From an archaeon (GTDB taxonomy: Archaea; Nanobdellota; Nanobdellia; Woesearchaeales; GW2011-AR9): a DNA stretch of 32,771 nucleotides. Shown here piece by piece: positions 2,906-20,349 of the stretch (position 1 is the stretch's first letter; each line of letters opens with the position of its first letter). The stretch is from contig JAHFQW010000002.1 of assembly GCA_023259115.1 (NCBI GenBank), forward strand, positions 39,370-72,140, read 5' to 3'. The position numbers and the translations under genes were made by a program. The notes beneath the pieces were generated by a model, which was given only the letters and a program-made list of their open reading frames with translations, did not search any database and was not told where the DNA came from.

Positions 2906-4348
2906 TCACGGACACATCTCTTTTAATTTCTGTAATGTCTCTTGAGGGTTCTTGACCGCAATACAATCTACAATTCTGGTTGCGGGGTAGTCGTTGCCAC
3001 CAGGATGTAATTTGTCTCCAAAGAAGAGAACTTGATTGACTAAGTAGTTGTTGTGGTTGAGGAATTGGCGGATGCCCCATTCTTTGTTTAAGCCTTTTCG
3101 GGTTATGTCCAGGGAGGTTGTGCCGCCGATTTTGATGTCGTATTTGGTTTCATCAAGCTGTTGAGTGAGAAAAGTTATCCATTCTAACCGTTTTTTGCCG
3201 TTGGGATCGTATTGGGCTTTGATTTCGGAGGGAGCATGGCGGCCGATGGCGGAGAGAGTGATTTGTGATTCGCGATCTTGCAGTTGATCTTCTTTTGTGG
3301 TGTGTGATTGGATGTTGTAGTGTGTGATGAGGTGATTGAGGGCAGTTGTGATTTCGTGTTTTTCTTTTTGGGTGAAAGTGTGGGTGTAGATGACTGTTGG
3401 TTGGTTGTGCTGGATGTGGACGTATTGTGTTCCGGTGGTGCCTAGAAGATGATGGGGTTGGGTTATTCTTGATGAGAGCATTTGTTGGAGGTCAATATTT
3501 TTGGTGCCGCTGATAAATGCGAATTGATAGCCGTGTTGGATCATGTGATTGATTTGATTTGCCATGGGTTGGCTGATTTGTTGACAACTGTTGCAGATGG
3601 TGTCGTCTACATCGGCGATGATGATGTTTTTTTCTTTGAGGTTGATGTAGGGTTGGAAGTGTTCGTTGGCGTGGTAGTATTTTTCGAGGGTGTCAGTGGG
3701 GAACCATTGGCCGGGGTGGATATATGCCGTGATTTGGTTTTGCGGAGCGAGGAATTCAAAGCAATCTTTTTCAATTGAGGATTTTTCTTTTGGGAGAATG
3801 TTGAGTGCTTGGGGGTTGATGATGAATGCGCCGGCATTGATGAGATTAGAGGGGGCGAGATGTCTCGGAGGTTTTTCGATGAATTGGATTATTTTGTTTT
3901 GGTCTAATTTTGCGACACCAAAGTTTTCGACATCTTCACGATGGGTGAGGGCCATGGTGATTTGAGTGTGTGATGATTGATGGAGATTGTGCATTTCTGT
4001 CCAATTTATGTCCATGAGGTTGTCTCCCCATGCAAGATAGAATGGTTCATTTTGTGGGAGAGTTGAGGCGGCGAATTTAACAGCACCACCGGTGCCAAGG
4101 GGTTGGTCTTCATAGATGTAGGTGAGATGTACTCCTAGTTGCGAGCCGTCTTGGAAGTATTCTTTGATTTGATCTGCTTTATAGCCTATGGAGAGGATGA
4201 TATTGTTGATATTATGTTGGGCGAGATTTTCAATGATGTGCTGCATGGTGGGTTTATTTTTGATTGGAAGAAGAGGTTTTGGGGTGTGGTCTGTTAGGGG
4301 TCTGAGGCGAGTGCCAAGACCGCCAACGAGGATGATAGCTGTATTCAT
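2906..4348 (-). CDS. Fusion: mannose-1-phosphate guanylyltransferase-like + PMM2-type phosphomannomutase
   Basis: One 480-residue frame carries two enzymes. Residues 1-232 are an NTP_transferase domain: GGLGTRLRPLT (9-19), PKP (23-25), WGDN metal site (107-110), EKP (158-160), NAGAF (171-175). It resembles GMPPB-type GDP-mannose pyrophosphorylases, though the sugar and nucleotide cannot be proved from sequence. Residues about 240-480 are a HAD-IIB phosphomannomutase of the eukaryotic PMM2 type: nucleophile/acid motif DVDDT (246-250), IGR (368-370), IGG...SLD (408-414), and FFGDKLHPGGND (442-453), which closely follows human PMM2 FFGDKTMPGGND. Together they would turn mannose-6-phosphate into GDP-mannose in one polypeptide. 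A TATA-like TTTAAAAAC at about 4372-4382 lies upstream. The gene diverges from the 5S rRNA gene. Confidence 0.88.
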   Translation of the reverse strand: MNTAIILVGGLGTRLRPLTDHTPKPLLPIKNKPTMQHIIENLAQHNINNIILSIGYKADQIKEYFQDGSQLGVHLTYIYEDQPLGTGGAVKFAASTLPQNEPFYLAWGDNLMDINWTEMHNLHQSSHTQITMALTHREDVENFGVAKLDQNKIIQFIEKPPRHLAPSNLINAGAFIINPQALNILPKEKSSIEKDCFEFLAPQNQITAYIHPGQWFPTDTLEKYYHANEHFQPYINLKEKNIIIADVDDTICNSCQQISQPMANQINHMIQHGYQFAFISGTKNIDLQQMLSSRITQPHHLLGTTGTQYVHIQHNQPTVIYTHTFTQKEKHEITTALNHLITHYNIQSHTTKEDQLQDRESQITLSAIGRHAPSEIKAQYDPNGKKRLEWITFLTQQLDETKYDIKIGGTTSLDITRKGLNKEWGIRQFLNHNNYLVNQVLFFGDKLHPGGNDYPATRIVDCIAVKNPQETLQKLKEMCP

Positions 4349-4463: not shown

Positions 4464-4577
4464 ATTGGACGGCCATAGGGGTGTGGTTCACCCGTTCCCG
4501 TTTCGAACACGGAAGTTAAGAACGCCTCCGTATCGGTGAGTACTGCATTACGTGGAAAAACCGGTAAGCTGTCCAAT
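4464..4577 (+). rRNA. 5S ribosomal RNA
   Basis: The terminal stem ATTGGAC (4464-4470) pairs with GTCCAAT (4571-4577). Inside are the universal 5S blocks: GGCCATAGGGGTG at the helix I/II start, the loop region CCCGTTCCCGTTTCGAACAC with GGAAGTTAAG (helix III and loop C), and GGTGAGTACTGCATTACGTGG of the helix IV/V domain. Length is about 114 nt, at the short end for archaea. No 16S, 23S or tRNA gene lies nearby, so this 5S gene is unlinked from an rRNA operon. It has its own TATA box and is followed by a T-rich tract. Confidence 0.93.
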
Positions 4578-4603
4578 TATTTTTCTAATAATCTTTTTGA
4601 TGA
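4578..4603 (+). terminator. T-rich terminator after 5S rRNA
   Basis: Right after the 5S stem comes a tract with TATTTTTCT and ATCTTTTTG. Archaeal RNA polymerase stops at such U-runs. The tract overlaps the 3' end of the convergent CofE-like gene (4585-5346). Confidence 0.5.
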
Positions 4604-5346
4604 CTACTCTTTTCTCTTTTTTTCCAATGAGCCGTTTGGAGTAGAGGAGAATAGAGGTCATCTTCTAGATTGATTTTGAGTTGTTGAAGCTCTTCATCAG
4701 TGGGGTTGCGATTTTGGAATTGACAAAAAGGTATTTCGGTGATTATGGCAAGAGGGGTTTGTTCATTTCCTTCGCCCATGACCACAACGGCAGCTGCGGC
4801 GAGTCCGTCCATGATATTTGCTTTGGTCATATTCATAGTGCGGCCAAAAATATCGGGTTGTCCTATGTAATTGTTGAGAGCGTGGAAGCCGCTATGAGCA
4901 ATGGCAATTCCAGTTGTGCCCCAACGCAGGGGAGTGGTTTTACTATCCGTTATGATTACTCCGATATGATTGAGTTTAAAGCGGGAGATGAGATGTTTTC
5001 GTATATGATTGGCAGTTTGCTGCGGGTCTTTGGGCCAGAGAACGTAGTATCCATTTGCATTTGATTCGTCAATACCAGCAGAGGGAATTAATGTGTTATT
5101 TTTGATGGTGAGGGTGACGTGATATTTGTTTTGTTGTGAGGGGATGTAATAATCTGATTGTTGCTGGATTAATGTTTCTTTTTCTACACTGTTTTTGGAT
5201 ACAATTGAGTTTTCACAGAGAGCTACTATTTTTGAGGTGATAACAAGGATTGATTTTTCGGTGAGGAGAGGCAGGGTGTTGTTTAGAATAGTAAATAGAT
5301 GGTTATTGGGAATGATTTTTTCTGTTTTAATTGATGTGATATTCAT
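4585..5346 (-). CDS. CofE-like F420-0:gamma-glutamyl ligase family protein
   Basis: The protein has 253 residues. It carries the signature stretches of CofE, which adds gamma-linked glutamate to F420-0 using GTP: VITSKIVAL (35-43), GIDESN (91-96), GVIITDS (129-135), GTTGIAI (143-149), FGR (167-169) and MGEGNEQTP (190-198). Length matches stand-alone CofE. No other F420 gene (cofC, cofD, cofG/H) is present here, and DPANN-type genomes often lack F420, so the true acceptor may be another molecule. The upstream gene, 38 bp away on the same strand, encodes a likely NlpC/P60-fold hydrolase, which hints at making and cutting an amide or gamma-glutamyl bond. Fold call is firm; substrate unknown. Confidence 0.85.
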   Translation of the reverse strand: MNITSIKTEKIIPNNHLFTILNNTLPLLTEKSILVITSKIVALCENSIVSKNSVEKETLIQQQSDYYIPSQQNKYHVTLTIKNNTLIPSAGIDESNANGYYVLWPKDPQQTANHIRKHLISRFKLNHIGVIITDSKTTPLRWGTTGIAIAHSGFHALNNYIGQPDIFGRTMNMTKANIMDGLAAAAVVVMGEGNEQTPLAIITEIPFCQFQNRNPTDEELQQLKINLEDDLYSPLLQTAHWKKREKSSHQKDY

Positions 5347-5384
5347 GGTTTTATTGAGGTTTATTGACTTACTTTATTTTTATT

Positions 5385-5900
5385 TTATTGCTGTTGTTTG
5401 AGGCGAAGGTGTTTATACACTTGTTGGTAGCAGGAGTATTTTTGTAATTCTGCTGTTGACCATAGTTGTATGCCACCGTTTTGGAATGGGGTGGAATGTA
5501 TCACTAGTGGTTCTCCTAATTGATTGCAGTCTGCGGTGCACATTACAAGATGAAGACGAGGATGTTCAAGTACATTTAAGATTTTACTTTGTGTTGTGTA
5601 CTCTTGCTCGATTCTTTTTATTTTATCACTCAGTCCAACGCGTCCAAGAACCAAAATATCGCCAAGCGTTCTTGGTTCCTCTTGGGATAGATTTCTAAAG
5701 TAATTTTGGTCATAGGCAAGTTCAAAACACATCAAGGAAGAAGGTAGTTTTATGTCAAATAAGTCATTTATTAGAAGATGAATCAGCGCACCGCAGTTTA
5801 GACCTGATTCTTTTGCGTCTTCCCAAGAGTTTATTTTATCTGGTCCGTTTTTGTATTCATATTTAATATTTCTTTTTATGATGTAATCTAGATTTGTCAT
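5385..5900 (-). CDS. Putative NlpC/P60-like cysteine hydrolase
   Basis: The 171-residue protein shows an NlpC/P60 layout: a cysteine at the start of a helix (LNCGALIHLLINDLF, C36), a PRTLGDILVLGR strand (76-87) equivalent to the family's 'L-x-x-G-D-L-V-F-F', then LHLVMCTA with H117, then PLVIHST with H135, matching 'HVGIY...IHA'. A Cys-His-His triad is therefore plausible. There is no signal peptide, so it may act in the cytoplasm or leave by another route. Canonical members cut peptide links involving D-gamma-glutamyl residues in murein; an archaeon lacks murein, so the substrate is open. It is the first gene of a two-gene unit with the CofE-like ligase. The match is by motif only. Confidence 0.6.
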   Translation of the reverse strand: MTNLDYIIKRNIKYEYKNGPDKINSWEDAKESGLNCGALIHLLINDLFDIKLPSSLMCFELAYDQNYFRNLSQEEPRTLGDILVLGRVGLSDKIKRIEQEYTTQSKILNVLEHPRLHLVMCTADCNQLGEPLVIHSTPFQNGGIQLWSTAELQKYSCYQQVYKHLRLKQQQ

Positions 5901-6009: not shown

Positions 6010-6044
6010 CGTTTTCTTTTGGTTTTTAATATGAAGGTGTGGTT

Positions 6045-12871: not shown

Positions 12872-13951
12872 ATGATACAAAAGTGGGCATCTGTGTTTTG
12901 TGATCCAGATAGTGGTGAGTCTCTTGAACTGGTTGTCAAGCAAAAAGAAAGTGACGATGTCATTGAAGGGCATTTTCGTTCTCGGAGTGGTAAAATTTGG
13001 CCTATTATAAATGGGGTGCCGCGTTTTGTTCCGGAAAATTTCTATGGTCAAAAAAAGCAAACAGTACAATCATTCTCCGCAAAGTGGACTAATTGGGAAG
13101 AAACCGCTGGTCGGCAGTTAGGACAAACAGAAGGAGAAGCTGCAGATCTTTCAGAGCAGCTAGGGCATCTTTTTGGTCTTCGAGGCGCTGCGCAAGTTGA
13201 GAGCAAGATTTTTAAATCGGGAACTCGTATTTTAGATGCTGGCTGCGGCATTGGCTGGGCAGAAGAGTTATTTAATCATAATCAAAGTTGTGAGCGTTTT
13301 GCTCTTGATATCTCTCAATCAGTTGATGTGGCACGTGTTCGCACTAAAATGATTCCCAATGTTTGTGTTCTTCAAGGGGATATTTTACATCTTCCTTTTA
13401 ACGGCCCAACGTTTGATGCAATTTTTTCTTCAGGAGTTATTCATCACACAGGAGATGCACGTCAAGCTTTTGCCAAGTTAGCTAGTACACTTAAGCCAGG
13501 GGGAATTATAGGTATTTATGTTTATGCTGTTAAACCTCTTTTGCGAGAAATGTCGGATATTGAGATTCGCAAGAAGACAACGGCTATGACTTACCAAGAG
13601 GTGTATGAATTTTCAGATCAAATTTCGCGTCTTGGCCAGGCATTTTCTAAAATCAAAGGTCGAATCGTCATTGAAAAAGATATTCCACTTCTGGGAATAG
13701 AAAAAGGAAAATATAAGCTACAGAAGTTTATGTATGATTATTTTATCCATTGCTGGTGGAACGAGAAGAGGGGCTTAGGGTTTGCTAATCTCAATAATGT
13801 TGATTGGTGGCATCCAACGTTTGCGAGCCATCAAACACGTGAAGAAATATTGGAATGGTTTGCCGAAAATGGTATTGAACTTAATAAGTTTTTGAAGCCA
13901 AAAGGCTGGGAGACGTCTGGTTATTTTATCAGTGGTCGAAAACCTCTCTAA
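12872..13951 (+). CDS. Class I SAM methyltransferase with Trm112-like N-terminus
   Basis: The protein has 359 residues. Residues 1-60 resemble the small Trm112-like ribbon often fused to methyltransferases (a late INGVPRFVP is typical), but the usual paired cysteines are absent. The Rossmann methyltransferase core has motif I LDAGCGIG (121-128), a later VLQGDILHLPF and FSSGVIHHT, typical of SAM-binding Methyltransf_11-type enzymes. A further 110 residues at the C-terminus are of unknown role. Ribosome site GAGGT (12861-12865) is 6 nt before the ATG. It opens the stretch of genes without the plus-strand G excess. A sugar or lipid acceptor is likely from context only. Confidence 0.85.
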   Translation: MIQKWASVFCDPDSGESLELVVKQKESDDVIEGHFRSRSGKIWPIINGVPRFVPENFYGQKKQTVQSFSAKWTNWEETAGRQLGQTEGEAADLSEQLGHLFGLRGAAQVESKIFKSGTRILDAGCGIGWAEELFNHNQSCERFALDISQSVDVARVRTKMIPNVCVLQGDILHLPFNGPTFDAIFSSGVIHHTGDARQAFAKLASTLKPGGIIGIYVYAVKPLLREMSDIEIRKKTTAMTYQEVYEFSDQISRLGQAFSKIKGRIVIEKDIPLLGIEKGKYKLQKFMYDYFIHCWWNEKRGLGFANLNNVDWWHPTFASHQTREEILEWFAENGIELNKFLKPKGWETSGYFISGRKPL

Positions 13952-13967
13952 ACTTTGTGCTAAAAAT

Positions 13968-13975
13968 GTTTATAC
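13968..13975 (+). promoter_or_regulatory. TATA box of the CDP-alcohol phosphatidyltransferase-like gene
   Basis: GTTTATAC is centred about 27 bp before ATG 13999, predicting a leaderless or nearly leaderless mRNA. Confidence 0.5.
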
Positions 13976-13998
13976 GTTTTTTAATTTGATTACTCAAA

Positions 13999-14727
13999 AT
14001 GAAAAATATTCCTCCCATTAAAGTATTAAGAGAAAGAATGCATGATCCAACAAGACCAATTTCAGGTATGAATAAGTTAGAAGTGGATTTTGCGGTTTAT
14101 ATCACTAAATTTTTTTTGTATACCCCATTGAAACCGATGCAGGTGATGTTTCTGTGGTTTATCCTCCAGATTGTGAGCTGTATTATTATTGCGCATGGCG
14201 GCTATTGGTATATTTTAGGAGGTGTTTTACTTTATCAATTGAGCGCAATTTTAGATAATGTTGATGGTCAGATGGCACGTTTTTATGGAGAGCAAAGTGT
14301 GCTCGCAATGTATGTTGATCAAATTTATCATTGGATTAATTATCCTCTTCTTTTTTTGGCACTTGGGTATGCAACTGATGTTATATGGTTAGGCATTGCC
14401 AATGCGGTCATTTTTGTATATACCAAGTTGTTTGTGTTTAATCCCAGCATTTATAATCTGAAAAATGAGCGAGTTGAGGGTGTCCTAAAAGGAATATATT
14501 GGAGTCCACGTAAGGAAGGCCAAAAAACAATTCTCATGAAAATATACGATTTATTTAGGCTAAACCTCTTGCTCAATGTTTTGTTTTTTGGTGTTTTGTT
14601 TAATATTGTAGTGGTTACGCTCTATATTTACATGGGGGTATTTGTGGGCGAATTTTTTCGAAAGTTTCTCTATACTATTTCCCAATTCCAGAAAGTAGAT
14701 CAAGAATTGTATGGAAAAAAGAAATAA
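13999..14727 (+). CDS. CDP-alcohol phosphatidyltransferase-like protein with altered active site
   Basis: These membrane enzymes join CDP-alcohols to a second alcohol to make phosphodiesters such as archaeal phospholipids. The 242-residue protein has several membrane helices and most of the CDP-OH-P signature D-x2-D-G-x2-A-R-x8-G-x3-D-x3-D: D86, D89, G90, A93, R94 and D107 are present. The glycine is A103 and the last aspartate, the proposed general base, is H111. A weak or changed activity, or a different acceptor, must be considered. It follows the methyltransferase by 47 bp with its own TATA box and is convergent with NAD synthetase. Composition resembles its neighbours in the 12.8-20.4 kb block. 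Confidence 0.82.
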   Translation: MKNIPPIKVLRERMHDPTRPISGMNKLEVDFAVYITKFFLYTPLKPMQVMFLWFILQIVSCIIIAHGGYWYILGGVLLYQLSAILDNVDGQMARFYGEQSVLAMYVDQIYHWINYPLLFLALGYATDVIWLGIANAVIFVYTKLFVFNPSIYNLKNERVEGVLKGIYWSPRKEGQKTILMKIYDLFRLNLLLNVLFFGVLFNIVVVTLYIYMGVFVGEFFRKFLYTISQFQKVDQELYGKKK

Positions 14728-14785
14728 ATTGTAATGGTTACATCATTTTTCAAAGAGCTGATAGTTTTTTAATGGATAAATTATC

Positions 14786-16747
14786 TCATACCATTCTCTT
14801 ATATTTCACAAGAGATAATATTTCTTTTCTTAATTCTTTGTACTTCTGTGTCAACATAAATGGGAACTGGCTTTCTCTGATATCATACCCGTAGGATGAT
14901 TTACTTACAACGATGATAGGCGGTGCCTGTATTCTTTTGAAAACATTCTGTTGGATTCTTCTGGAAAAGTCTTCTAAGTCTTCCACAAATATGCTGGGAT
15001 TGTCTATCTCCCATCTTTGTACTAATTCTGTAGAAATACCTAAATTCTGTTCTAATGTGCCTTCAAGATACCATTGGGCAATGTCTTCCATTGTTTTTTT
15101 ATTATAATCAGCATAAGCTTCGATAAGAGCATCATGATACCCCCATCTAAATGGGTCTATCTGTTTCTCTTTGAGCTCTGCGGTTGGGGGCAACTTAAAC
15201 CTAAACAATTTATCAGGGAAGAGGATTTCTGGAATTACTTCTTTTTGAAATATTTCGTTATTAAGATATCTTGCCATCTCAAAAACTTCTGACTTTGTGA
15301 GATCGCCAATTGGTGCTATAACGCCACCAACATCTCCATATAACGTAGCATATCCCGTGGCTATTTCTATTTTATTGCCATTATTAGTGAACAATGCGCC
15401 TTCTTGTGAGGCAAGATTAGAGAGTATAGTAGTTCCTCTTATTTTGGCTTGAATGTTCTCAGCTACTAGCGGGCTTATTTTTTTATTGGTGCTATGTTTG
15501 CCAATGATTTTTTCATTTAATTCTACTTGGTCTGTGATGGGAATTGTAATAAAAGGAATACCTAAAGCTCTTGCGACGTGATTTGCAACGTCTTTAGTCT
15601 TTTGAGTGTTATATTGAGTTGGCATATTAATCCCTGTTACTTTATCTCTGCCAACTGCTTGCACAACTAATGCTGCAACTAAAGAACTATCTACTCCTCC
15701 ACTAAGTCCGATGATACATTTTGGATGTTGGGATGAGCCAATTATATTTTTTATATGTTTTATTCCAGTTATAATTGCGTCATACTTTTGGGCTATTTTT
15801 TCTTTTTCAATTCTCTCAATGGGAGGATTATTATATATTTTATCATCAACAATGATCAACTCTTCTGCATATGGTGCTCGACTAAATAATACGGGCAAAC
15901 CCTCGGGTGAATATACAGTGGTTCCACCATCAAAAGTAATTACATTCTTGCCATTATTTTGGGCGCCAACGCAATTTACATATAAAAAAGGTACAAAACT
16001 GCTTCCACCACATTTTTTAATAAATTGTATTCTTCTATCACGTGCTTTATTTTTACCATAGGTCCAGGGGGAGGCGGAGAGGTTTATAATCAATTTTGCG
16101 CCATTATCGGTGAGCATTTTAGTAGTATTTAGTACTTCTCCATTATATCTGTAATCTTCACACCACAAATCTTCACACAGTTCAAAGCCGATAGGAACTT
16201 TAATACCTTTGATATCAATTAAATAAGGCTGTAATAAATCTTTTATGTTTGCATTAAAATCTTCCGCAATATCTTTCAGGGAAAAAAAATACCTCTTATC
16301 ATCAAAAAAGCGATAGTTGGGCAGTAAGTTTTTTGGTTGAATTCCTGGTGGCAGTAGACCATGCTCTTGTAATCTTGGTGCAGGTTTTCCATTTTGTATA
16401 ATGTAGGTTGCATTGTACTTTCTGATTCTTCCGTCTTGATTGGGGTGGGTGGATGAGTTATTTATTCGGTTATTTATCTCTTCTTTTGAATCACCATATA
16501 CATTGCCAAAAGCTATAGCGATTCCATTACTTGCATCTACTATTTGATGATTATAACTCATTAAATCGAATACAATATGGTTTTTATTCCAATCATCTCC
16601 GATAAAGTAACCACCAATACACATTTCGGGAAAAACAATTAAGTCTACTTTTTTTTCCTTGGCATTTTCAATGCAAGAAAGAATCTTAGTTATATTTATG
16701 TCTGGTCTTCCAGCTATCACTTCCATCTGGGCAAGGGCAATTTTCAT
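14786..16747 (-). CDS. nadE: Glutamine-dependent NAD+ synthetase
   Basis: This enzyme makes NAD+ from deamido-NAD+, ATP and glutamine. From ATG 16747 it has 653 residues. The N-terminal nitrilase-type glutaminase has the Glu-Lys-Cys triad candidates E41 (VFPEMCIGGY), K139 and C191 (GFELCEDLW). The C-terminal synthetase has the PP-loop SGGVDSS (349-355) and TGYATLYGD. Both halves look intact. The frame is open 29 codons further up, but MKIALAQMEV is where the family begins, and TATA-like GTTAAAAATAAAC (about 16765-16778) lies 25 bp before it. It is a housekeeping enzyme sitting inside a sugar cluster, in the block lacking the G excess. Confidence 0.93.
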   Translation of the reverse strand: MKIALAQMEVIAGRPDINITKILSCIENAKEKKVDLIVFPEMCIGGYFIGDDWNKNHIVFDLMSYNHQIVDASNGIAIAFGNVYGDSKEEINNRINNSSTHPNQDGRIRKYNATYIIQNGKPAPRLQEHGLLPPGIQPKNLLPNYRFFDDKRYFFSLKDIAEDFNANIKDLLQPYLIDIKGIKVPIGFELCEDLWCEDYRYNGEVLNTTKMLTDNGAKLIINLSASPWTYGKNKARDRRIQFIKKCGGSSFVPFLYVNCVGAQNNGKNVITFDGGTTVYSPEGLPVLFSRAPYAEELIIVDDKIYNNPPIERIEKEKIAQKYDAIITGIKHIKNIIGSSQHPKCIIGLSGGVDSSLVAALVVQAVGRDKVTGINMPTQYNTQKTKDVANHVARALGIPFITIPITDQVELNEKIIGKHSTNKKISPLVAENIQAKIRGTTILSNLASQEGALFTNNGNKIEIATGYATLYGDVGGVIAPIGDLTKSEVFEMARYLNNEIFQKEVIPEILFPDKLFRFKLPPTAELKEKQIDPFRWGYHDALIEAYADYNKKTMEDIAQWYLEGTLEQNLGISTELVQRWEIDNPSIFVEDLEDFSRRIQQNVFKRIQAPPIIVVSKSSYGYDIRESQFPFMLTQKYKELRKEILSLVKYKRMV

Positions 16748-16911
16748 CAAACTTAAATTATTAGGTTTATTTTTAACTTTATCTGTTCTTAGGTTCATTT
16801 CTGAACTATTTTGAAATACAGAACAGATGACCAAAAGCTTTATTAATCGTTTTGGTTTTGGAAATCAGATAATATTGGGTCAAAAAAAGTGTATTTTAAT
16901 GGGTGAAACTT

Positions 16912-18213
16912 ATGAAAATGGGAATTAGTAATGATTTATTGAATGGGACGAAAAAAATAGGAGTTTGGGGTATAGGTTATATAGGAATTACCAATGTTAT
17001 TCATTTTTCTGAGAGTGGAGTAAAGTCTATCTGCTTTGATATAAGCAAAAATGTTGTTGAAGATATTAATCAAGGAATCGTGAGGATACCTAATTTAGAG
17101 AGCTGGATGGGGCAGCAACTCCGGCCTTTTGTAGATAGAGGACTCATAAAAGCGACAACCGATTTTAATGAATTAAAAGATTGTCCGATTCACTTTATTG
17201 CGGTTCCAACGGAGAAAGATGAAAAACCGTGGCTTGATGCAATAAAAGATGTGCTCAAGAAAATAAAATCATTTGGCGATAACCGGCTCATTGTCATTGA
17301 ATCTACGTTAACTCCAGGTACGGTTGATACGTTAACCATAGAATTAGATTTAAAGAATCCTATTGCCATAGCACCAAGAAGGGACTGGTTTCAGTCTCCG
17401 GAAATGAATTTAAGGAACCTTCCTCGTGTTTTTGGTGTGAATAACGTTGAATATACTGAAGAATTCAAAAATGTTTTGTCAATTGTTTGTAATACTTTAT
17501 TGGTGGCGTCAAATCACAAAGTTGCTGAGATGGTTAAATCGGTTGAGAATAGTCTGCTACATGTACCAGTTGCGTATGCTATGGAAGTTGCCAGAGCATA
17601 TCCTAATATTAACATTTCTGAAGTTTTTGATTTAGCTAGTACGCATTGGAGGATACCCAAATATAATATTACATTTGGCACGGGAGGTTATTGTATTCCT
17701 CTGTCAACGCAGTATGTGATTGCGGGCGCAGAAAAACCACAAGAATTAAAAATAGCTAAAGGGGCTATAGAATCAGATCAATATCAACCAAAATATGTCT
17801 CCAAACATATTAAAGGAAAAAATATTGGAATATTGGGAATTTGTTATAAAGGGGATCTTAAAGTTTGTATCTTAAGTCCTTCGTTGAAAATTGTTGATGA
17901 ATTGCATAATAATAATTCAGGTGGTTTTGCTATCAAGATATTTGATCCTTATTATTCTACTGATGAAATTAAAAAGATAGCACGTTGCGACTCTTTTACA
18001 TTTCCAGAGGATTTAGAACATTTTTCAACGATTATATTAGGGCCAACACATAAGTTATTTAAGCAGATAACTCGAGAGGAAATAAAGAAGTATATAAAAC
18101 CGGGCACAAGAATACTTGATAGTCAAGGATGCTGGGGGAACCATCGTCAACAATTCATTGAATTGGGTATTGAATACATGAGAGTTGGTGATGGATCAGG
18201 GCATTGGAATTGA
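16912..18213 (+). CDS. UDP-GlcNAc/ManNAc 6-dehydrogenase-like enzyme
   Basis: The 433-residue protein belongs to the UDP-glucose/GDP-mannose dehydrogenase family. It has GIGYIG (20-25), an ESTLTPGT segment (130-137), MVKSVENS with K209 and N213, and the catalytic cysteine C261 in GTGGYCIPL, closest to the GGHCIP form of N-acetylhexosamine dehydrogenases (WecC/WbpA). The usual CPER near mid-protein reads APRRDWF (155-160), so it is a divergent member. Ribosome site GGGTGA (16901-16906) lies 6 nt before ATG 16912; a GTG at 16903 is less likely. It would provide the uronic-acid step for the diacetamido-sugar genes on the other strand. Confidence 0.82.
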   Translation: MKMGISNDLLNGTKKIGVWGIGYIGITNVIHFSESGVKSICFDISKNVVEDINQGIVRIPNLESWMGQQLRPFVDRGLIKATTDFNELKDCPIHFIAVPTEKDEKPWLDAIKDVLKKIKSFGDNRLIVIESTLTPGTVDTLTIELDLKNPIAIAPRRDWFQSPEMNLRNLPRVFGVNNVEYTEEFKNVLSIVCNTLLVASNHKVAEMVKSVENSLLHVPVAYAMEVARAYPNINISEVFDLASTHWRIPKYNITFGTGGYCIPLSTQYVIAGAEKPQELKIAKGAIESDQYQPKYVSKHIKGKNIGILGICYKGDLKVCILSPSLKIVDELHNNNSGGFAIKIFDPYYSTDEIKKIARCDSFTFPEDLEHFSTIILGPTHKLFKQITREEIKKYIKPGTRILDSQGCWGNHRQQFIELGIEYMRVGDGSGHWN

Positions 18214-18236
18214 ATGAACTAAATTAAAAATAAAAT

Positions 18237-19145
18237 ATGATCAAGAAATACTTCGTAATTGCATATAAAAAAGGGCATCGTTTTCTAACTAGTAGAGGGA
18301 TACGACCCTATTTTTTACGTTTTCTCAATAAAAAACTGATTCAATATCTTAAGTCAGATACGGTGCAGATGAATGGACATACATTTTATCTTGATTCAGT
18401 GGATTCTCTACGACTTTCAACTCGGGGAGAGTATGAATCTTTCATTACTGAACTCTTTGCCAAAGAAGTAAAAGAGGGCGATATTGTTATTGATATTGGC
18501 GCAAATATAGGTTGCCATACTCTTGCTTTAGCTAAGTTAGTGGGGGAAAAAGGAAAAGTTTATGCGTTTGAGCCTCATCCAGAAACTTTTGCTCTGCTCA
18601 AAAAGAACATAGAAGAGAATGGGTATACGAATGTTATTGCAGAACAGAAAGCCATTTCTTGTAAACCGGGTGTAATTAAGTTGTATTTAGCTAAGAAGAA
18701 TAGAACGACAACACATTCTATTGTCAAAAATCAATATACACAAGATAGCTTTTTTGAAGTTGAGGCCGTCGCGTTGGATGATTATTTTAAACAAAGAAAA
18801 GAGTCTGTAGTCAATTTTATAAAATTGGATGTGGAGGGAGCAGAACATCATGTAATACTGGGCATGCGTAAACTTATTCAAAAAAATAAGATTCTTAAGA
18901 TGATTACGGAATTTAGCCCAATTCGTTTGCAGCTACTGGGCATAAAACCAGAAGAACATCTCGCATTGCTTGGGGAAGTGGGGTTTAATTTGAGGACTAT
19001 CAATTCTGAACAAAGGATACTTGAAGACTTCGATCCTAAAAAAGTACATACTTATCTCACCAATAAATATAGAAACTCAACGTGTATGGATATTTTCTGT
19101 TATAAAGAAGTACCTCCTAAAAATATTAGAAACATACTGTTATAG
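18237..19145 (+). CDS. FkbM-family SAM methyltransferase
   Basis: The 302-residue protein has the FkbM layout: GDIVIDIGANIGCHTLALA (81-99) as motif I, YAFEPHPETF, then INFIKLDVEGAE-type motif (NFIKLDVEGAEHHVI) and a C-terminal domain. FkbM enzymes O-methylate sugars or related compounds. The gene lies 23 bp after the 6-dehydrogenase and has no clear ribosome site. A sugar O-methylation of the surface glycan is the likely role. Confidence 0.88.
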   Translation: MIKKYFVIAYKKGHRFLTSRGIRPYFLRFLNKKLIQYLKSDTVQMNGHTFYLDSVDSLRLSTRGEYESFITELFAKEVKEGDIVIDIGANIGCHTLALAKLVGEKGKVYAFEPHPETFALLKKNIEENGYTNVIAEQKAISCKPGVIKLYLAKKNRTTTHSIVKNQYTQDSFFEVEAVALDDYFKQRKESVVNFIKLDVEGAEHHVILGMRKLIQKNKILKMITEFSPIRLQLLGIKPEEHLALLGEVGFNLRTINSEQRILEDFDPKKVHTYLTNKYRNSTCMDIFCYKEVPPKNIRNILL

Positions 19146-19190
19146 ATAATTCTGTGGATTATAATACTTTTTGTACCTAATTATCTAATA

Positions 19191-19231
19191 AGACAATTCT
19201 AAATAATTGTCATAAAGTAATAGAATTGTCT
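19191..19231. terminator. Nested inverted repeat between convergent genes
   Basis: AGACAATTCTA (19191-19201) and TAGAATTGTCT (19221-19231) form a perfect 11-bp inverted repeat, with a second overlapping pairing ACAATT/AATTGT inside. It lies between the converging FkbM and epimerase genes and could mark the 3' ends of both transcripts. Confidence 0.45.
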
Positions 19232-19239
19232 ATATTAAC

Positions 19240-20349
19240 TTATTCTTGCTTGTTTGGGGCAATGGTCTTATTCTTAAAATCATGCTGAATTATTTCAACC
19301 ATTTTTTGAGCGGTGTTACCATCTCCAAAAGGACTGATCCAATCTCTTTTACTTTCCATCATTATTTTAATAGATTTGAGTATCTTTGATGGTTTGGTTC
19401 CAGCAATGATATTTGCACCAATTTCTACTGTCTCTGGCCGTTCGGTGTTGTCCCTTAAAGTGACACAGGGAGTTCTTAAGATGCATGCTTCTTCCTGAAC
19501 GCCGCCTGAATCAGTCAAAACTACTTTAGCATCTTTAATTAATTGTAAGAATTCAAAATAGTCCAGTGGATCACTTAAAATCACTCCTGTGGGAATTTTT
19601 AGTTTAAATTCGGCTATTCTCTTTTTCGTTCGTGGGTGTATGGGATAAAATAGAGTTTCTCCATATTTCTGATACACTTTTTCCAACGATTTGAGCAACT
19701 TTTGCAGTCTTTCTTTATTATCAGTGTTTTCTGCTCGATGGATAGTTATCAAGAAATATTCTTGTTTTTGCAGAGAATGTTTAGGGAGGTAATCTATTTT
19801 TTTTATGTCTTTAAGATGTTCTAGAACGGCATCCGCTACGGTATTTCCAACTATATGAATTTTTTGAGGAGATACGCCTTCATATATTAGATGTTTTTCT
19901 TGAGTTTTGGTTGGGGCGAAAAGATAATCAGAGAGATGATCAGTAAGAATGCGATTGATTTCTTCAGGCATAGTGCTATCAAAACTTCTTAAACCTGCTT
20001 CTACATGAGCGATTTTAATTCCCAATTGAGATGCGGCGAGAGCACCACCTAGCACGGTGTTCGTGTCTCCTGCAACCATGACGCAATCTGGTTTTTCTTT
20101 TTCTAGAATCTCTTTAATTTTTGTGAGCATTAACGCGATCTGTTTTCCTTGCGTATCAGAGCCAACATGAAGATTATAATGTGGCAGCGGCAAATCCAAA
20201 GATTGGAAAAAAACATCATTCATATTAGGAGAATAGTGCTGGTTTGTATGGATTATGAGGTAATCTAATTTTTGTTCATGTAATTGATGGATAATACTCC
20301 ACATTTTAATTATTTCTGGTCTGGTTCCTAACATAATAGCTATTTTCAT
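19240..20349 (-). CDS. wecB: UDP-N-acetylglucosamine 2-epimerase (first copy)
   Basis: The 369-residue enzyme has LGTRPEIIK (7-15), GDTNT (94-98), HVEAGLRSF (115-123), MPEEINR (127-133), HRAEN and a late DSGGVQEEA, the full set for non-hydrolysing UDP-GlcNAc 2-epimerases. These convert UDP-GlcNAc to UDP-ManNAc, or UDP-GlcNAc3NAcA to UDP-ManNAc3NAcA (WbpI). Which of the two epimerases here does which cannot be read from sequence. This copy lacks the base skew of the minus-strand cluster that follows, so it probably has a different history from the second copy. Confidence 0.9.
   Translation of the reverse strand: MKIAIMLGTRPEIIKMWSIIHQLHEQKLDYLIIHTNQHYSPNMNDVFFQSLDLPLPHYNLHVGSDTQGKQIALMLTKIKEILEKEKPDCVMVAGDTNTVLGGALAASQLGIKIAHVEAGLRSFDSTMPEEINRILTDHLSDYLFAPTKTQEKHLIYEGVSPQKIHIVGNTVADAVLEHLKDIKKIDYLPKHSLQKQEYFLITIHRAENTDNKERLQKLLKSLEKVYQKYGETLFYPIHPRTKKRIAEFKLKIPTGVILSDPLDYFEFLQLIKDAKVVLTDSGGVQEEACILRTPCVTLRDNTERPETVEIGANIIAGTKPSKILKSIKIMMESKRDWISPFGDGNTAQKMVEIIQHDFKNKTIAPNKQE

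Follow-up and report, generated by a model that had tools for sequence, protein, structure and literature searches.

We consider it likely that the gene at positions 4585 to 5346 (minus strand) of an archaeal contig encodes a FolC2-type folate:gamma-glutamate ligase, derived from Patescibacteria (CPR), and that the small protein encoded just upstream is independent of it. The window, by which we mean the whole stretch of DNA analysed (32,771 nucleotides; G000:C48:39370-72140), belongs to a genome of 1.57 Mb in 54 contigs with an estimated completeness of 96%. Within it, the ligase gene (253 aa; named FolC2-like, or TIGR04132-like, from Pfam, NCBIfam, a tree and an alignment with solved CofE) follows, after a 38-bp gap (5347 to 5384), a gene on the same strand for a 171-aa NlpC/P60-like protein (5385 to 5900; named from profile comparison and one relative). 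The ligase gene converges with a 5S rRNA gene (4465 to 4577, plus strand) that lies 7 bp from its stop codon, outside the pair. Since a thermosome gene (514 bits against a cut-off of 450, partial sequence) about 11 kb from the ligase and a type II methionine aminopeptidase gene about 5 kb from it are on the same contig, the ligase gene sits in archaeal DNA.

To judge by its sequence, the protein is a CofE-superfamily gamma-glutamyl ligase, as an earlier note on this DNA had recognised, matching Pfam F420_ligase (PF01996) at E 2.3e-38 and 132 bits (cut-off 25). It carries the conserved motifs AGIDESNA (with D93) and ITDSKTTPLRWG (with D134), and the two aspartates, which we take to be metal ligands, align with the equivalent residues of solved archaeal CofE (E 3e-17). 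Its top NCBIfam model was TIGR04132, "putative folate metabolism gamma-glutamate ligase", matched over 241 of 241 positions at 305 bits, short of the curated cut-off of 350. The CofE models gave 104 to 122 bits against cut-offs of 181 to 304 (TIGR01916: 121 bits, below its cut-off of 180.65). TIGR04132 was likewise the best model for all seven bacterial relatives scanned (301, 301, 299, 210, 326, 284 and 223 bits, with 95 to 139 bits for TIGR01916), and because none of the seven reaches 350 either, that cut-off seems to exclude the whole branch rather than this protein in particular.

These scores bear on whether the enzyme could instead be a true CofE that acts on F420-0 salvaged from other cells, a reading that the CofE fold, the two conserved aspartates, the PF01996 score and the match to solved CofE would all allow. 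We regard it as very unlikely, however, given the deficit against the CofE models relative to TIGR04132, the DHFR-like and ThyA genes that adjoin its relatives (see below), and a search of the host genome that found no F420-type CofD, the marker by which we judged F420 synthesis. The sole CofD-family gene (L092:5667-6641, on G000:C42) scored 322 bits for YvcK (TIGR01826, cut-off 196) versus 24 bits for CofD (TIGR01819, cut-off 257), so its PF01933 match was rejected as an F420 CofD. The statement in the earlier note that other F420 genes are lacking is thus borne out for the CofD marker alone, and an orphan CofE serving F420 was rejected on the model scores together with the absent F420-type CofD. 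That a PF01933 search reports YvcK as CofD is a trap for F420 pathway calls more generally.

The host genome does hold enzymes that use folate. A serine hydroxymethyltransferase (SHMT) gene lies about 92 kb from the ligase on the same contig, where 5-formyl-tetrahydrofolate (5-formyl-THF) cyclo-ligase (157 bits, cut-off 85), SHMT and FolD stand in a row (L091:4704-11431; G000:C48:134703-141430), with a formyltransferase gene divergent from them (PF00551, 46 bits, cut-off 26). The row is followed by NeuB-like and PseF-like genes, both under their NCBIfam cut-offs, so that the folate one-carbon supply adjoins surface-sugar genes and perhaps serves N-formyl sugars. FolC (TIGR01499) was not found in the 96% complete host genome, and neither ThyA nor DHFR was matched there, whereas 21 and 20 of 40 sample genomes, respectively, had matches. 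The typical CPR partners of the ligase gene are thus missing here, although at this completeness any one absence may be a gap in the assembly. From this gene content we infer that THF carries one-carbon and formyl units in this cell and does not serve thymidylate synthesis via ThyA, the formyl groups going perhaps to N-formylated surface sugars. In several relatives the genes for ThyA, DHFR and SHMT adjoin one another (e.g., G007:C3:300325-302871); of these three the host has SHMT alone. Of 39 other relatives, 14 had an SHMT that scored above its cut-off and none of these 14 had the ligase, which means that the ligase is not indispensable wherever SHMT is present. PMC5994134 describes C1 metabolism based on folate for some Woesearchaeota.

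Because the sub-family (TIGR04132/FolC2) is already known for folate and the genome holds enzymes that depend on it, the simplest product would be a known one, gamma-glutamyl tetrahydrofolate; the undescribed product that the earlier note had envisaged is not supported. We infer substrate, direction of transfer and mechanism as follows. The ligase would be a CofE-fold enzyme standing in place of FolC; by analogy with CofE, GTP and divalent metal would activate the terminal carboxylate of the acceptor, to which L-glutamate would then be joined. Tetrahydrofolate would serve as the acceptor, or dihydropteroate should the cell make its own folate, and the glutamate tail would allow the cofactor to be retained and to be bound by SHMT, FolD, 5-formyl-THF cyclo-ligase and the formyltransferase. 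The small protein would act independently as a rare NlpC/P60-like thiol hydrolase. For CofE itself, PMC10861534 describes a reaction that involves GTP, a pair of Mn ions and an acyl-phosphate.

To evaluate where the ligase came from, we surveyed its family across related and distant genomes. Among 96 relatives (same genus, family and order) it occurred in the host genome only, and in a phylum-wide sample it occurred in 2 of 371 genomes. The second case (L003) is more CofE-like (174 bits for TIGR01916 versus 130 for TIGR04132) and lacks the small protein in the stretch examined. In that genome (G118, same class), the ligase, just under the CofE cut-off, overlaps a membrane-protein-like ORF and a radical SAM protein gene (L003:779-3128), a trio that is apparently an operon. 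A profile scan of genome_contigs, with a two-row alignment (A1) that included the CofE-like L003 protein as the query, returned 443 relatives. The best 80 of these were nearly all Patescibacteria by record title, the others being three records from proteobacteria, one each from Opitutia and TM6, and some from unnamed bacteria, with a top identity of 57-58% in the best segment. No ligase relatives were found in viral_contigs, and the 29 plasmid records with relatives reached at most 34.2% identity in the 20 matches listed, several of them annotated as CofE. In a tree of 82 rows the window ligase fell among the CPR rows, with deep forks poorly resolved and its residue composition flagged by the tree program as unusual. 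The 80 relatives were picked by similarity and close kin of the host genome may be missing, so a CPR donor is suggested rather than identified; acquisition from a bacterium of the Patescibacteria is nonetheless the most likely origin.

The bacterial loci also speak to function, since they reveal what the ligase gene keeps for company. We scanned the 122 nearest ORFs of 100-600 aa around the bacterial ligase genes (60 upstream, 62 downstream; L035 and L046 were left out, their match having no overlapping gene call, and a contig edge cuts some loci short) and found RibD_C in 19, DHFR in 18, thymidylate synthase in 5 and Pterin_bind in 2, making folate genes commoner beside the CPR ligase than any other family. 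NlpC/P60 was absent from the best 25 of the 103 families among these ORFs. In 21 of 80 loci an iterative profile search placed a DHFR/RibD-like ORF no more than 1 kb from the ligase, and in 24 it found one anywhere in the DNA examined. The association is uneven, with no folate gene beside the ligase in the near CPR relatives L004, L019 and L006 and, in L010, a DHFR-like ORF that is encoded on the opposite strand. In the window itself, no folate gene clusters with the ligase, which lies outside any folate operon. An AbiEii-type nucleotidyltransferase gene (L019:5348-6001) is directly upstream of one close CPR relative of the ligase.

It is the surroundings in the window, rich in nucleotide-sugar and glycosyltransferase-like genes (most of them named by eye), that suggest a different acceptor, for example a surface peptide or else a sugar-linked acid belonging to the polysaccharide cluster. 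We think this very unlikely: the polysaccharide genes run opposite to the ligase pair, starting at 6039, and the CPR ligase family keeps company with folate genes above any other. One ORF of the window (2906 to 4348) joins a sugar-nucleotidyltransferase domain to a HAD/phosphomannomutase-like domain.

Turning to the small protein, conventional searches returned little. There was no match in Pfam (at E 1, PF00877 included) or NCBIfam, no relatives were found in PDB, plasmids, phages or viral_contigs, nor by a pattern search of genome_contigs, and a lone weak hit in PHROGs covered 31 residues (E 0.0087). A weak match in L006 (E 0.64) was dismissed as chance, the ORF being one that we recognise as dCTP-deaminase-like. 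Searching 35 ligase-bearing genomes from among the 80 bacterial loci yielded a single relative, in the CPR genome G415 (L094:1471-1938; BLASTP E 1e-21, 29% identity over 160 columns), which keeps Cys36, His117 and His135 as well as the LPSSL, GD and H-x-TP motifs, and itself has no PF00877 match at E 10. This relative adjoins radC and an Ig-like-domain gene rather than the ligase of G415. Across 379 Patescibacteria genomes the family was present in G415 and in none of the other 378, and among the 96 relatives of the host it was present in the host genome only. The conservation in G415 weighs heavily against the small ORF being a decayed or chance frame that encodes no enzyme, an idea that the lack of a family match and the occurrence in only one other genome could favour but that we find extremely improbable.

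With these two sequences we built a profile and compared it with NlpC/P60 proteins (hhalign, local mode), obtaining a probability of 61% (E 8e-5, score 34.9) against a profile of three E. coli NlpC/P60 proteins and of 78% (E 2e-5, score 40.0) when two more proteins were added. In the alignment, candidate nucleophile Cys36 (GLNCGALIH; codon 5793 to 5795, minus strand), candidate catalytic His117 (RLHLVMC; codon 5550 to 5552, minus strand) and the candidate third residue His135 (LVIHSTP; codon 5496 to 5498, minus strand) fell on the NlpC/P60 catalytic residues. None of 200 column shuffles per profile scored as high (best 20.5 and 21.8, versus 34.9 and 40.0), nor did any of 122 neighbour proteins used as controls (best 22.2); single NlpC proteins scored 14 to 30, three of the five above all controls and two not. 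Because the relative keeps the Cys-His-His set and the profile match exceeds the controls, this layout is not a chance resemblance, and the NlpC/P60-like arrangement that the earlier note had seen 38 bp upstream of the ligase is real, if very divergent. A papain-like fold is possible, with support only from the remote profile comparison; a single-sequence structure model came out at a mean pLDDT of 34, too low to be of use. As no signal peptide or membrane helix was evident by eye, the protein would be placed in the cytosol, and going by sequence features it is probably an intracellular thiol hydrolase, rare and NlpC/P60-like. The host's only PF00877 match, a weak NLPC_P60 hit under the cut-off (E 1.2e-4; G000:C47:18504-18665, L105), lies in a different protein, and similar weak matches occur in several relatives. 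A literature search for NlpC/P60 with archaea and DPANN found no report.

Whether the two genes form a unit is a separate question. Cleavage at gamma-glutamyl residues is common among NlpC/P60 enzymes, and one can picture a maker and a cutter: the ligase would attach gamma-glutamates to tetrahydrofolate, and its neighbour would trim them as an analogue of gamma-glutamyl hydrolase. The 38-bp gap on one strand makes co-transcription possible, the Cys-His-His set is conserved in NlpC/P60 register, and both proteins may be cytosolic. Distribution argues the other way. Two profiles detected no NlpC-like ORF at any of the 80 loci with a bacterial ligase gene, and in the 35 ligase-bearing genomes the small protein has a single relative, which sits by radC and the Ig-like-domain gene. 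Among the genomes examined, the two genes are adjacent in the host alone, so there is probably no matched maker and cutter, and this reading is highly doubtful. A conserved maker-cutter pair is rejected on the same counts (1 of 96 relatives for each gene, 0 of 80 ligase loci), and the conserved neighbourhood that the earlier note proposed as its own check did not appear (each family in 1 of 96 relatives; the ligase family in 2 of 371 phylum genomes, the second lacking the small protein in the stretch examined; no NlpC-like ORF at 80 bacterial loci). Its suggestion that the pair makes and cuts one amide bond is not supported.

We also compared base composition. The ligase gave a third-codon G:C count of 19:79 and the small gene one of 17:36 (P 0.11 between them), against 141:1169 for eight genes on the minus strand of the window with strong skew (P 0.013 for the ligase, 4e-5 for the small gene); as those eight were selected for that skew, the P values give no more than a hint that both genes arrived after the core genes. 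The counts neither show nor exclude an origin of the two in one event, and scans for promoters and terminators gave nothing above shuffles. Over positions 1311 to 31816 the window has a very strong plus-strand GC skew (third-codon values of about +0.8 in plus-strand genes and -0.8 in minus-strand genes), which is weak at 1311 to 2825 and in the block at 12872 to 20349; these may be later imports.

We therefore keep the small protein apart from the ligase, to which no link was shown, and the maker-cutter idea has little support. A folate-tail hydrolase role for it is possible, the 38-bp gap being the sole evidence, and a two-gene archaeal folate-tail module, with a FolC2 enzyme to attach gamma-glutamates and an NlpC/P60-like thiol hydrolase to take them off, is highly improbable. 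If such a module did exist, it would set cofactor retention in a cell with a folate formyl and one-carbon carrier and without DHFR or ThyA, and its hydrolase would be unlike the known gamma-glutamyl hydrolase. On the preferred reading of a CPR-derived FolC2-type ligase and an independent small protein, the significance is of another sort. A CPR-type FolC2 on an archaeal contig, with the sampled relatives lacking it, would be a bacterial folate-retention gene moved into an archaeon; a likely annotation error is corrected, such genes being easily called F420 ligase; and with the small protein comes a rare and divergent NlpC/P60-like family, of which two members have been found to date.

Setting these proteins against known systems, the closest precedent for the ligase is CT611 (FolC2, COG1478) of Chlamydia, which lies beside folate genes and complements an E. 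coli folC mutant, in a bacterium without other cof genes (both from PMC1971073). COG1478 is tabulated as CofE or CT611 (tetrahydrofolate synthesis) in PMC5041015. No report of FolC2 from DPANN came up in the literature searched, though this does not prove that none exists. A word search of PMC11974145, a CPR paper whose abstract mentions folate, found none of folC, folylpolyglutamate, polyglutam or cofE. The window ligase resembles FolC2/CT611 as a CofE-superfamily enzyme in a genome with folate enzymes in which FolC and F420-type CofD were not found; it differs in its archaeal host, in standing outside a folate operon and under the curated cut-off, in a genome where DHFR and ThyA were not found, and in having a function that is predicted from sequence. 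With CofE (Archaeoglobus 2phn; 7uld) it shares PF01996 and the AGIDxSN and IITD motifs with their two aspartates, but it has TTPLRWG where solved CofE has the NGRCFRRG stretch, scores far under the CofE cut-offs and comes from a genome without F420-type CofD. Like the E. coli NlpC/P60 peptidases MepS, NlpC and MepH, the small protein has the cysteine, the histidine and the third-residue histidine in register, together with GD and IH motifs; unlike them, it has NCGA for DCSG, extra residues before the first histidine, no Pfam match and no visible signal peptide. Taken together, the sequence comparisons lead us to place the ligase in the known FolC2-like group, as a new member that an archaeon acquired by horizontal transfer.
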